Origin: Tsukamurella ocularis
Lineage (GTDB): Bacteria > Actinomycetota > Actinomycetes > Mycobacteriales > Mycobacteriaceae
Reading direction: 5' to 3'
NCBI RefSeq assembly: GCF_024807615.1
Contig: NZ_JANUCJ010000003.1
Location: 930,001-994,000, forward strand
DNA length: 64,000 bases
The translations under genes and the position numbers were made by a program. A model generated the notes under the pieces. It worked only from the letters and a program-made list of their open reading frames with translations. It made no database searches and had not been told where the DNA came from. Shown in pieces: positions 280 to 64,000 of this stretch. Every line of letters starts with the position of its first letter. Positions within the stretch are counted from its first letter, which is position 1.

Positions 280-1656
280 TCAGCACTCCGGCACGTTGAC
301 GGCGAGGCCGCCGAGGGAGGTCTCCTTGTACTTCGACAGCATGTCGGCGCCGGTCTGGCGCATGGTCTCGATGGCCTGATCCAGCGAGACGCGGTGCGTC
401 CCGTCACCGTGCAGGGCGATGCGGGCGGCGTTGACGGCCTTCACGGAGGCGATGGCGTTGCGCTCGATGCACGGGATCTGCACGAGGCCGCCGATCGGGT
501 CGCAGGTCAGGCCCAGGTTGTGCTCGATGCCGATCTCGGCGGCGTTCTCCACCTGCGGGGGCGTCGCGCCCATGACCTGCGCCAGCGCACCTGCCGCCAT
601 GGAGCAGGCGGAGCCGACCTCGCCCTGGCAGCCCACCTCGGCACCGGAGATGGAGGCGCGCCGCTTGTACAGCACCGCGATCGCCGCAGCGGTCAACAGG
701 TAGTCGCACACGACCTGCTCCCGGCGCGCGGCCAACGACGAGCGGAACTTCAGCGCGTAGTACAGCACCGACGGAACGATCCCGGCCGCGCCGTTGGTGG
801 GCGCGGTGACGATCCGGCCGCCGCAGGCGTTCTCCTCGTTGACGGCCATGGCCGCGACGTTGAGCCAGTCCATGGCGTCGGCCCCGTCGGAGTCGACGAG
901 CCTGCGGTACAGCCCCGGCGCGCGCCGCTTGACCCCGAGCCCACCGGGCAGCATGCCCTCTGCGTGGAAGCCCCGCTCGATGCAGGCCTCCATCACCTCC
1001 CAGATGTGCAGCAGTCCGGCGCGCACCTCGCGTTCCGCCACGTCCGACGGTCCGCCGTGCAGCGCGATCTCGTTCTCCAGCATCAGCTGCGGGACGGTGC
1101 GGCCGGTGCGCGGGCAGGTCTCGAGCAGAGCGGCGGCGGTGTCGAAGTCGTGCGGCACCCCGGGCGATCCGGCGAGTGGATTCACGGTGTCTGCGCCGGA
1201 CTCGCGCTCGACGAAGCCGCCGCCGACGGAGTAGTAGACCGCCTCGTGCTCAGCCCCGTCGGCGAGCACCGCCCGGAACCGGATGCCATTGGTGTGCCTC
1301 GGCAGCACGGTGAGCGGGTGCAGCACGATCTCCTCGGCGCACAGCGGCACCTCCTCGCGCCCGCCGAAGCTGATCCGGCGGGCGGCCTCGATCTCTGCGC
1401 CACGCTTCTCGACGTAGTCCGGGTCCACGGTCTCGGGGCGGTTGCCCTCGAGTCCCAGCAGCACGGCGGCGAAGGTCCCGTGCCCGCGCCCGGTGGCCGC
1501 GAGCGAGCCGTACAGATCGACGTGGACGGCGCGCACCGTCGACGGGGCGGATCGCAGCTCGTCGGCGAAGTCCGCGCCCGCCCGCATGGGGCCCACGGTG
1601 TGGGAACTCGACGGGCCGATGCCCACCGAGAACAGGTCGAACACACTGATCGTCAC
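280..1656 (-). CDS. sdaA: L-serine ammonia-lyase (single-chain, iron-sulfur)
   Basis: Converts L-serine to pyruvate and ammonia in the cytoplasm using a [4Fe-4S] cluster. The 458-residue chain has the family N-terminus ([19 protein letters not shown]) in the beta domain and the catalytic alpha domain after about residue 170. The cluster cysteines are Cys343 (GCQGEVGS), Cys385 and Cys396 ([12 protein letters not shown]). The protein ends in Cys458 (VPEC), which matches the length and C-terminal cysteine of the Legionella enzyme, where that tail residue reaches into the active site as a fourth ligand. The start is a GTG giving MTISVFDLF, as in mycobacterial SdaA; a TAGGGT -10 lies 6 nt upstream. 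It is divergent from the cyclase gene with only 31 bp between them. Confidence 0.96.
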
Positions 1657-1662
1657 CCTTCC

Positions 1663-1681
1663 ACCCTATGCCCCATACAGT
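1663..1681. promoter_or_regulatory. Overlapping divergent -10 elements (sdaA / cyclase)
   Basis: Within the 31-bp gap, TAGGGT (minus strand, 1668-1663) ends 6 nt before the sdaA GTG and TACAGT (plus strand, 1676-1681) ends 6 nt before the cyclase ATG. Both predict leaderless transcripts. The two promoters must overlap, since their -35 regions fall inside the opposite genes. Confidence 0.55.
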
Positions 1682-1687
1682 GGACAC

Positions 1688-2692
1688 ATGGGCGACGCCG
1701 AAGATCTGGACATCGACGGTCTGCTCCTCCCGGGCGAACGCAAGTACACCTTCCGTGAGCTCGCCGAGCAGGGCGGCATCGACGTGGAGGACCTTCGTGT
1801 CTGGTGGACCTCCGCCGGCTTCGCGGACCTGCGCGACGACGACCAGAAGGCCTTCACCCGGGACGACGTCGCGATCGTCAAGGACCTCGGCGACCTGTTC
1901 TCCTCCGACGTCGTCGAGGGTGAGGCGGTGGTGCCCGGCGCGCAGTCGCTCGGCCAGGCGATGTACCGGCTCGCCGAATGGCAGGCCGGCATCGTCAAGA
2001 ACTACCTCGACAACGCGCACGACGCGGGCGTGAAGGATCCGTCGGCCGGCGTGGCGCAGGTCATCGACAAGATGGAGAACCTGCAGTCGCACGTGTGGCG
2101 GCGGCACCTGTCCACGGCGACGCAGCGGCTCGTGACCTTGGAGGAGGCGGACGCGCTGACCGCGCGAATGGCGGTGGGCTTCGCCGACATGGTCGGCTAC
2201 ACCCGGCTGAGCCGCGGGCTCGCCGTCGAGGAGCTCAACACGTTGGTCTCGACGTTCGAATCGCGGATGCAGGTGGTGATCTACGGCGGTGGTGGGCACA
2301 TCATCAAGGGGGTCGGCGACGAAGTCATGTTCGCAGCCGACGACCCGTCAGCCGCCGCGCGCATCGCGCTGGAGCTCCAGACCCCGCACGAGTACCCCGA
2401 GCTCGACGCGATCGAGATCGAGTTCCCCCAGCTGCGCGTGGGCCTCGCGTACGGCGAGGTATTGCAACGCTACGGCGACCTATTCGGCAGCGTGGTCAAC
2501 CTGGCCGCCCGTCTCACCAGCGCAGCCCGACCCGGCACCGTGCTCATCGACGACAATTTCACCCAGGTCATCGCCGACGATCCGGACCTCGCCACCCGCA
2601 GCCTGCGCGCCTACCGCGCCCGCGGCTTCCGGGCCGTGCACCCGCACCTGCTGCGCTACAGCAAGGACGCCGTCGCGACGATGGAGGCCTAG
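1688..2692 (+). CDS. Class III adenylate cyclase with N-terminal regulatory domain
   Basis: Makes cAMP from ATP. In this 334-residue protein residues 1-150 form an all-helical regulatory region like that of mycobacterial Rv1264/Rv2212-type cyclases, and residues 160-330 form the catalytic domain. Visible catalytic residues are the metal-binding Asp167 (GFADMVGYT) and Asp211 (GVGDEVMF), the adenine-selecting Lys207 (IIKGVGDE) and Asp264 (YGDLFG), and the transition-state Asn271 and Arg275 (VNLAARL). All are present, so an active adenylate rather than guanylate cyclase is expected. No membrane segment is seen, so it is probably soluble. The ATG at 1688 follows a TACAGT -10 by 6 nt; an upstream in-frame extension would run into sdaA. 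Confidence 0.92.
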   Translation: MGDAEDLDIDGLLLPGERKYTFRELAEQGGIDVEDLRVWWTSAGFADLRDDDQKAFTRDDVAIVKDLGDLFSSDVVEGEAVVPGAQSLGQAMYRLAEWQAGIVKNYLDNAHDAGVKDPSAGVAQVIDKMENLQSHVWRRHLSTATQRLVTLEEADALTARMAVGFADMVGYTRLSRGLAVEELNTLVSTFESRMQVVIYGGGGHIIKGVGDEVMFAADDPSAAARIALELQTPHEYPELDAIEIEFPQLRVGLAYGEVLQRYGDLFGSVVNLAARLTSAARPGTVLIDDNFTQVIADDPDLATRSLRAYRARGFRAVHPHLLRYSKDAVATMEA

Positions 2693-63156: not shown

Positions 63157-63164
63157 GGACGTTC

Positions 63165-63170
63165 AGGGTA
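63165..63170 (-). promoter_or_regulatory. -10 element of the glf operon
   Basis: TACCCT on the minus strand, 8 nt before the GTG at 63156. Confidence 0.4.
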
Positions 63171-63214
63171 CCGGCCGGGCGGCGTGGATGACGCCACCCG
63201 GCCCGGGCCTGTGA

Positions 63215-64000
63215 CTAAGCCGCGGCGCCCGGCACCGTCGGGACGGGAAGTGGGGTCGATCCCGCCGGCGCCGCGGGCGCCGCCGGAGCGGCGGGTGCGG
63301 TGGTCACCGCGGCCGCAGGAGCGGACGGGGCGGCCGGTGCCGCCGGGGCAGCGGGCGCCGCCGGCGTGCTCGCTCCCGGGGCGGCGGGGGCGGCGGTGTC
63401 GCCCGGGACGACGGGGACCGCGGGCACGCCCGTCGGGGTGTCGCCCGGGGTCGGGTTGATGCCGATCAGGTCGCCCCAGCCCGGGATCAAGTTGAGCAGC
63501 GGCAATGGCGGCAGGCTCGGCGCGCCGCCCGCGGCGAACGCCGTCGCCCAGTTGAGCAGGGTCGCGGGGGCGGAGACGCCCGACGGGACCACCTGGGCGC
63601 CGTTCGCCTTCGAGTAGTAGATGGTGCCGTTCTGGTACGACTGCAGCATCGAACCGTCGGGGAAGGCGATCGGGTTCGCGACGACGCGGCCGAGCGTGCC
63701 CTTCTCGCCGCCGGCGGCCGCGTACGCGGCCTCGACTGCGGCCTTGCCGGTCACGGCCTGCGCCGCGGGCGCCACAGCGGAGGCGGCCGGCGGCGCGGGG
63801 ATGCCCGGGATCGCGGGCGCGGCCGGCGCAGTGGGCGCGGCGGCGACCGTCGGGATCGCGGGGGCCGCTGCAGCTGCCGGGGCGGCGCCGGGCACCGTCG
63901 GGACCGCGGGGGCCGCCGGGGCGGCCGGAGCCGCAGGGACCGCACCCGTGGACGCGGTGGGAGTGGTCGCGCCCACCGGCGCGGACTGGGCCGCGTTGGG
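63215..64000 (-). CDS. Ala/Pro-rich LGFP-type exported protein (5' end beyond window)
   Basis: The reading frame is open to the right edge, so the start and any signal peptide are outside the window. The visible 261 residues are low-complexity PAAPAAPAAP-type sequence at both ends. Between them is one folded LGFP-like unit (KAAVEAAYAAAGGEKGTLGR, ANPIAFPDGSMLQSYQNG, IYYSKANGAQVV). It lies where the exported repetitive protein Erp/PirG sits next to glf in M. tuberculosis, though on the opposite strand from the M. tuberculosis gene, and may play a similar wall-associated role. Two GCACCGTC motif copies lie in its Val-Pro-rich ends. Confidence 0.7.
   Translation of the reverse strand, partial: PNAAQSAPVGATTPTASTGAVPAAPAAPAAPAVPTVPGAAPAAAAAPAIPTVAAAPTAPAAPAIPGIPAPPAASAVAPAAQAVTGKAAVEAAYAAAGGEKGTLGRVVANPIAFPDGSMLQSYQNGTIYYSKANGAQVVPSGVSAPATLLNWATAFAAGGAPSLPPLPLLNLIPGWGDLIGINPTPGDTPTGVPAVPVVPGDTAAPAAPGASTPAAPAAPAAPAAPSAPAAAVTTAPAAPAAPAAPAGSTPLPVPTVPGAAA

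Follow-up and report, generated by a model that had tools for sequence, protein, structure and literature searches.

A non-palindromic word iterated across Tsukamurella chromosomes and its possible role as a self mark in DNA

The chromosome of Tsukamurella ocularis carries a short non-palindromic word, CGACGGTGC, whose over-representation is confirmed here. The word is nearly restricted to its genus, in which it is carried in thousands of copies, and its abundance is best read as the outcome of selection or drive acting on DNA. Among the roles considered, a self mark resembling the DUS (DNA uptake sequences) of Neisseria is rated highest, with a likelihood somewhat short of even.

Over-representation and form of the word

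The window (the whole stretch analysed, 64,000 nt at 70.9% GC) contains 60 copies of the octamer GACGGTGC/GCACCGTC, 34 as GACGGTGC and 26 as GCACCGTC, where an earlier sequence-only reading had counted about 59 (33 and 26). The nine-base extension CGACGGTGC accounts for 46 of the 60 (25 on the + strand, 21 on the - strand), exactly the figure previously approximated. Base composition predicts about 5 octamers, as first proposed and as reproduced by our own arithmetic, and with a second-order Markov background for the window the expectation is 9.5 octamers and 4.9 9-mers. Across the whole genome (4.31 Mb), CGACGGTGC occurs 2598 times, compared to 68 for the reversed word. K-mer statistics were obtained from a sample of about a tenth of the genome, with genes called by our own simple gene caller. 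In 410 kb of this sample, 252 copies are observed versus 48 under a third-order Markov model, one of the backgrounds that the sequence-only reading had named as able to refute its claim. A synonymous-codon model likewise fails to reach the count (224 seen versus 39.4 +- 6.1 in 380 genes), and codon shuffling of a slightly larger set of coding sequences (CDS) yields a 5.8x excess (245 versus 42); codon bias accounts for only part of the enrichment. CGACGGTGC ranks first among all 9-mers in 180 kb of CDS (119 versus 19.4), where it is a clear single outlier, and also ranks first in the sample of the one-contig relative G004.

Neighbouring words are less abundant, though not uniformly so. The 24 one-mismatch octamers average 9.5 copies in the window, with a maximum of 29. 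GACGGTGG (14) and GACGGTGA (27) are indeed rarer than the word, as originally noted, but GACGGTGA is itself enriched (27 versus 5.5). Equal enrichment of all one-mismatch neighbours is not observed: in the 410 kb sample, such 9-mers mostly occur at 0.6-1.7x expectation, with values of 1.5-3.0x where an end base is changed and of 2.0-2.2x for the two inner substitutions that place A at base five or six. The word can be described as a core, CGACGGTG, with a 3' preference of C > A > T/G, set in soft flanking sequence of the form (T/C)CGACGGTGCC(G).

Distribution in the window, chromosome and genus

On the + strand of the window, copies of GACGGTGC begin at 1093, 3088, 6049, 7349, 12145, 12768, 13026, 16962, 18428, 19065, 21129, 23262, 25262, 25558, 26670, 28475, 29225, 29843, 31675, 33737, 37511, 37551, 38829, 40620, 42113, 43147, 44821, 49359, 50707, 52576, 53637, 55439, 58373 and 59410. 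Those on the - strand, read as GCACCGTC, begin at 1533, 7428, 9121, 12169, 12259, 12782, 14559, 14656, 14680, 15560, 16688, 21117, 26439, 29625, 30669, 31357, 31568, 37346, 48887, 49634, 50183, 50264, 60786, 61661, 63232 and 63892, and all copies together span 1093..63899. Twelve of the 60 lie outside called genes, including all six positions originally described as non-coding: 14559..14566 (-), 37346..37353 (-), 49359..49366 (+), 50183..50190 (-), and an inverted pair at 21117 and 21129. This pair (21117..21136, both strands) lies between two convergent called genes within a longer flanking inverted repeat, is conserved at the corresponding locus of T. tyrosinosolvens (L139:21103 and 21115), and is possibly a terminator. 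Inverted pairs are not over-abundant (12 within 40 bp versus about 14 expected, 878 sites), which argues against termination or paired use as the main role. Genic copies include three in a LigD-like ATP-dependent DNA ligase gene (12145..12266; 12145 +, 12169 -, 12259 -), two of which read Ala-Pro-Ser, as well as Ala-Pro-Ser copies in a Pks13-like gene (42113..42120, +) and in gene 53884-55515 (55439..55446, +); the LigD-like and Pks13-like names are taken from orthologues.

Density is equal between intergenic and genic DNA (6.1 versus 6.2 per 10 kb). The lack of orientation bias noted in the window extends to the genome (1281 versus 1317), to sense and antisense copies within genes (101 versus 123) and to the leading and lagging strands (121 versus 127; 22 stretches, one-contig relative G004). 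FtsK-orienting sequences (KOPS) are similarly short, non-palindromic and chromosome-wide, but they are strongly strand-polar; the absence of replichore bias excludes a signal of this type. Gaps between copies are exponential (cv 0.93-1.05), ruling out regular spacing or clustering. Direct pairs at 60-100 bp show a mild excess (22 versus 13).

The even, strand-neutral, chromosome-wide spread (variance/mean of copy number 1.12 across 42 stretches of 20 kb) would suit a site bound by a protein that organises the chromosome, or by a DNA-binding protein of another kind. It would also suit a site linked to methylation and maintained by some process, in the manner of HIP1 of cyanobacteria, a palindromic, lineage-wide iterated word whose role is unexplained. 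We consider both unlikely. The word shares the lineage-wide iteration of HIP1 but is non-palindromic, multiplication would not be expected of ordinary methylation sites, and binding sites are seldom multiplied in coding DNA at the protein's cost, an effect that is seen here in Ala-Pro-Ser tripeptides (below).

The fifteen other Tsukamurella genomes contain 827-4002 copies of CGACGGTGC, a fivefold range within the genus. Per Mb, 15 of the 16 Tsukamurella genomes exceed every one of 45 genomes from other genera; the remaining one, G006 (165/Mb), is level with G020 of another genus (167/Mb). The sampled contigs of G006 are tiny and low in GC (14 kb, 32% GC) and were left out, and its orthologous stretch L153 alone was used. 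A softer second form is present in basal species, with 769 copies of CGACGGTGA versus 1247 of CGACGGTGC in G007. No earlier description of the word was found in the literature, where an exact-word query is too unspecific to show or exclude one.

Selection on DNA and effect on proteins

Word sites are kept between species more often than controls (60%, against a median of 38% among 107 control words), and peptide-matched retention at synonymous sites is 69% versus 48% (18 word and 88 control sites, phylogenetically non-independent). Single-base variants in other species affect all nine positions through both transitions and transversions, and thus a single mutational route to the word is excluded. 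At most places, the surrounding DNA aligns and base changes alone account for the gain or loss of a site, which argues against insertion of mobile elements. Some word sites fall in gapped, poorly aligned parts.

An artefact of composition, codon-pair usage or mutation could be suspected from mild enrichment in G020 (28 versus 10.3) and G032 (17 versus 6.7), i.e. 2.5-2.7x, and in Gordonia (12 versus 7.3), and from some one-mismatch words that also exceed codon expectation (53 versus 31, 31 versus 13). It is nevertheless highly improbable given the excess in the codon shuffle, the parity of density inside and outside genes, the retention of sites both overall and when peptide-matched, and the variation at every position.

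The word has also altered proteins. Ala-Pro-Ser encoding, first reported for at least 14 genes of the window, holds for 14 in-frame sites, but these are distributed over 13 genes. The tripeptide occurs 98 times versus a mean of 45 over its five permutations, and 43 of the 98 are written GCACCGTCG, the synonym count proposed by the sequence-only reading. The ratio to permutations is 2.16 in T. ocularis, 1.84 in G004, 2.18 in G001 and 1.12 in G007/8F, compared to 0.59-0.80 in three sets from other Mycobacteriales. The excess of Ala-Pro-Ser, approximately doubled in the proteome, is produced by the word itself. Frame independence, intergenic parity, synonymous-site retention and this word-made excess lend good support to the original proposal that selection acts on the DNA and not on the protein.

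Uptake signal or Chi-like signal

The initial interpretation is partly supported: selection at the DNA level stands, while a DNA uptake sequence and a Chi-like signal are not separated. Either would predict a protein that reads a 10-base word, and the genus (827 to 4002 copies) offers a natural series for following the spread of such words. Under the favoured reading, a self mark for DNA uptake, Tsukamurella would be naturally competent, with transformation proceeding via a Tad (Flp) pilus and ComEA/ComEC. Word-bearing DNA would be bound or taken up better, so that recipients would acquire alleles with the word more frequently. The word would then build up at every place where the chromosome can bear it, even in protein linkers, as a genus-level self mark maintained at the DNA level. 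More tentatively, it may be the first DUS beyond the Gram-negative families known for such sequences, in a mycolic-acid actinobacterium that would use a Tad-pilus/ComEA route rather than a ComP-type pilin, and with a reshaped proteome. This would imply self-recognising natural transformation in Mycobacteriales, where uptake-borne gene exchange is hardly documented.

ComEC is encoded in 60 of 61 genomes, the T. ocularis genome has a ComEA-type helix-hairpin-helix gene and Tad genes, and a search for pilus ATPases found the Tad type alone; no report of competence in Tsukamurella was found in the literature. Since com genes occur throughout the order, they leave the genus restriction of the word unaccounted for and were rejected as a discriminator. 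Inverted pairs are common among DUS, where they serve as terminators, though they are not strictly defining. The word resembles the DUS of Neisseriaceae, with their dialects (PMC3630211), and the uptake signal sequences of Pasteurellaceae in being non-palindromic, about 10 bases long, taxon-specific, first in rank, present in thousands of copies in genic and intergenic DNA on both strands, and softer in basal species. DUS are 10-mers with about 1900 copies in N. meningitidis and 943-5918 across Neisseriaceae (PMC3630211), and the copy numbers of the word are of this order. Further points in favour of an uptake signal are the standing of the word as a single outlier, with an enrichment above that of E. 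coli Chi, the excess of Ala-Pro-Ser, the balance of leading and lagging strands, the intergenic parity and the fivefold range of copy number in the genus. It differs from them in its unrelated sequence and phylum, in an enrichment over the codon null of just about sixfold, and in having one conserved inverted pair rather than an excess. The absence of such an excess, the enrichment partly shared with G020 and G032, the order-wide spread of com genes, the failure to find a report of competence, and the lack of a candidate receptor comparable to ComP count against an uptake signal.

A close rival is that the word is read as a Chi-like signal by the RecBCD (or AdnAB) of Tsukamurella, at which the enzyme would turn from degradation to RecA loading, with the core chromosome selected to carry it; this is possible, if doubtful. 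RecC (PF04257) is present in all 16 Tsukamurella genomes versus 4 of 21 other genera, and recC adjoins recB in T. ocularis. A point against this reading is that in mycobacteria AdnAB, not RecBCD, is the recombination enzyme; a putative AdnAB-like tandem is also present in the T. ocularis genome. The word is octamer-scale (8-9 bases), non-palindromic and over-represented, like the Chi sequences of E. coli (GCTGGTGG) and Pseudomonas (GCTGGCGC; PMC5959072). Chi is reported to be over-represented in core genomes (PMC8022716), and the word may be too, if low-GC stretches are taken as a proxy for acquired DNA: three of four are poor in it (O/E 0.8, 2.0 and 2.6, versus 7.6 in 43 stretches), with 8.1 in the fourth. 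A single GC-rich stretch is also poor in the word (O/E 2.5). The lack of leading-strand bias contrasts with E. coli (40:17 in our sample) but does not rule out Chi, since Chi is reported to be non-polar in Pseudomonas (1119 versus 1122) and to show no significant polarity in H. influenzae, S. aureus or B. subtilis (PMC5959072).

The best agreement of GACGGTGC with any Chi variant on record is 6 of 8 bases, with GGTG in register; however, a random 70% GC 10-mer matches as closely with probability 0.30, which puts the resemblance at chance level. In an identical shuffle test, Chi in 200 kb of E. coli reaches half the enrichment of the word (57 versus 19, or 2.9x), and it ranks only sixth among octamers there. 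Among other RecC-bearing genomes, G016 has no outlying word (64 kb of CDS called) and G020 has none that is similarly strong, even though G020 RecC resembles that of Tsukamurella at most of the columns taken to be Chi contacts; the comparison of this pocket gave nothing decisive. The five species listed as having established Chi or Chi-like words include no actinobacterium (PMC8022716). As far as the literature covered here goes, a Chi function would be the first proposed for an actinobacterium, and it would provide a signal on which the RecBCD of this order can be tested.

The word is also enriched in Tsukamurella phage TPA2 (16 versus 3.9 in CDS, reached in 0 of 200 shuffles), which an uptake signal does not predict. 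Phages without recombinases are reported to over-represent Chi (PMC3784561), which would favour a Chi reading, but TPA2 has an exonuclease, as do its relatives, and this rule therefore does not explain its enrichment. The analysis covered 50 kb of each phage: of TIN2 and TIN4, which are about 76 kb long, and of four control phages, with KR011061, a Skermania phage, used as a control. Mild enrichment is also seen in two of three related phages that infect other hosts (7 versus 3.0, 7 versus 2.8), and many other words are more enriched than this one in TPA2.

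Enrichment of the word in Tsukamurella

The window (C3:930001-994000 of the 4.31 Mb draft genome of Tsukamurella ocularis, a mycolic-acid actinobacterium) contains 60 copies of the octamer GACGGTGC and 46 of the non-palindromic 9-mer CGACGGTGC (the word). Its UDP-galactopyranose mutase is 96% identical to that of Tsukamurella spumae and 94% to that of Tsukamurella sp. PLM1, which places the window in this genus. The genome holds 1281 + 1317 copies of the word and only 34 + 34 of its letter-reversed form. In a 410 kb sample, a third-order Markov model predicts 48 copies for 252 observed, and 7 for 99 of the 11-mer CGACGGTGCCG; most one-mismatch words lie close to expectation there, with end-base changes enriched 1.3-3.0-fold and two inner changes 2.0-2.2-fold. 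Permutation of synonymous codons (codon shuffle) in 380 called genes yields 39.4 ± 6.1 copies against 224 observed. In a second gene set, observed and expected counts were 245 and 42 for the word, 145 and 22 for CGACGGTGCC, 81 and 31 for CGACGGTGA, 67 and 30 for CGACGGTGG, and 37 and 16 for CGACGGTGT. By the same procedure, the word ranks first among all 9-mers both in 180 kb of T. ocularis coding sequence (119 vs 19.4) and in its relative G004 (92 vs 14.4), whereas E. coli Chi, taken as a yardstick, reaches 57 vs 19 in 200 kb and ranks sixth among octamers.

Among 61 genomes, the word is present at 603 copies per Mb in T. ocularis, at a maximum of 817 in its congener G001, at 265 and 165 in the Tsukamurella genomes G007 and G006, and at no more than 167 (G020) outside the genus, across 45 genomes from 42 genera. 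All 16 Tsukamurella genomes exceed every other genus in raw counts, the largest outside being 713. Across 298 genomes of the order, CGACGGTGCC reaches 340, 386 and 209 per Mb in three Tsukamurella and at most about 77 per Mb, from rounded genome sizes, in the other 295. Part of the enrichment of the word is common to genera outside Tsukamurella, with codon shuffles giving 28 vs 10.3 in G020, 17 vs 6.7 in G032 and 12 vs 7.3 at ten Gordonia loci. Separately, CGGTGAGC/GGTGAGCA heads the over-represented list of G032 (L224-L229; another genus of the family), with 69 and 52 copies where the codon shuffle predicts 21 and 14.

FadD32 identity is 84-85% for G006 and G007 and 94-100% for the rest of Tsukamurella. 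This places the two genomes outside their congeners, so the copy number of the word rose inside the genus. In basal G007, the A form and the C form (the word) are similarly enriched (22 vs 8.1 and 21 vs 5.6; codon shuffle). Basal G006 and G007 carry 582 and 769 copies of the A form alongside 827 and 1247 C-form copies, an A share above that of the remaining genus.

Reading frames, protein composition and turnover

Word density is 6.2 per 10 kb within genes and 6.1 outside them. Four of the six frames are well used, namely Thr-Val antisense (76), Asp-Gly-Ala (62), Ala-Pro-Ser (42, vs 0.8 expected) and Thr-Val sense (38), and the His-Arg-Arg and Arg-Arg-Cys frames account for 5 and 1. At 929 CGACGGTG sites within genes of several Tsukamurella, C is preferred at the first following base (552, expected 251) and at the second (578, expected 399); at the preceding base, T is preferred (319 vs 193) and G avoided (177 vs 279).

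Ala-Pro-Ser occurs 98 times in 131,000 T. ocularis residues, compared with a mean of 45 for its five permutations, and 43 of the 98 are written by GCACCGTCG. The corresponding ratio is 2.16 in T. ocularis, 1.84 in G004, 2.18 in G001 and 1.12 in basal G007/8F; outside the genus it is 0.59 in G020, 0.80 in G032 and 0.80 over 77 loci of other Mycobacteriales. Because this excess falls when word-coded copies are removed (to 1.21, 1.10 and 0.85 in T. ocularis, G004 and G001), the word has reshaped proteins, inserting amino acids at places otherwise without them.

Retention was assessed in two aligned regions of 14 genomes, leaving out G006 and G007 and dropping windows with more than four mismatches. 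The word is unchanged in 60% of 3606 pairwise occurrences, which is the 99th percentile of 107 control words, whose median is 38%. Where peptide and frame are both shared, the word is unchanged in 136 of 197 cases (18 sites) and controls in 420 of 876 (88 sites). Variants in other species may differ at any of the nine bases, and 9 of 27 site columns in a 17 kb region are confined to a single genome.

Distribution along chromosome, plasmid and phages

Gaps between copies are exponential (cv 0.93, 1.05 and 1.00 in three sets), the variance/mean of copy count is 1.12 in 42 GC-typical 20 kb stretches, and O/E is 7.6 across 43 stretches. Three of four low-GC stretches are poor in the word (O/E 0.8, 2.0 and 2.6; the fourth, 8.1), as is one GC-rich stretch (2.5); the two depleted stretches inspected (ten proteins) both have IS21-type transposition genes, one also with a DDE transposase. 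No leading-strand bias was detected in 22 stretches of G004 (121 leading vs 127 lagging, P = 0.75; strands assigned from dnaA at 1.496 Mb).

In coding sequence of plasmid pTpau01 (L110, L111), the backbone half carries 5 copies vs 1.9 expected and the siderophore-type NRPS half 34 vs 5.5; from these halves, word density may indicate the residence time of DNA in the genus. The IS elements of pTpau01 sit in its word-poor backbone half, the NRPS half being word-rich.

An inverted word pair on both strands at 21117-21136, between convergent genes, is kept in Tsukamurella tyrosinosolvens (L139:21103-21122) and is a possible terminator. Positions 38000-63200 form a cell-wall cluster, whose T. tyrosinosolvens orthologues are annotated as glf, glycosyltransferase, decaprenyl-phosphate phosphoribosyltransferase, FadD32 and Pks13. 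The 288,890 bp record NZ_LR134454.1 (L114, L139), titled plasmid 12 of that species, holds a glf-fadD32-pks13 region in the gene order of the window's chromosome and looks like a chromosome piece mislabelled as a plasmid.

A possible uptake mark or Chi site

DNA-level selection or biased transmission is the reading that fits the word. Codon bias as a full explanation and a single mutational route of origin do not fit the data.

The evidence is divided between an uptake mark and a Chi site. Uptake is ranked slightly ahead because the outlier strength and protein-sequence cost of the word exceed those of E. coli Chi in the same tests. A role as an uptake mark would also accord with its copy number, proteome effect and within-genus variation; DUS dialects are described in PMC3630211. 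ComEC was found in 60 of 61 genomes, the sole miss being a genome 66% complete, and in T. ocularis a ComEA-type HHH domain adjoins it. The single T2SSE ATPase of T. ocularis is the TadA of a Tad locus. Searches of open-licence papers yielded none on natural competence in Tsukamurella or on uptake signal sequences in Actinobacteria.

Ranked slightly behind, a Chi site would accord with the occurrence of RecC in every one of the 16 Tsukamurella genomes but in just 4 of the 21 further genera tested within the order. It has a precedent in the Pseudomonas Chi, which PMC5959072 describes as over-represented without polarity. One phage hints weakly in the same direction: TPA2 of Tsukamurella paurometabola has 16 copies vs 3.9 in coding sequence, a count reached in 0 of 200 shuffles. 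The octamers place only 32nd and 34th among over-represented words of TPA2. Phages TIN2 and TIN4 have 2 vs 1.0 each, and control phages of other hosts 7 vs 3.0 (Mariokart), 7 vs 2.8 (Thonko), 2 vs 2.3 (AnarQue) and 1 vs 1.2 (SPI1). Tsukamurella RecC matches the solved E. coli RecC structure, and in T. ocularis RecB adjoins RecC, with an AdnAB-like tandem at a separate place.
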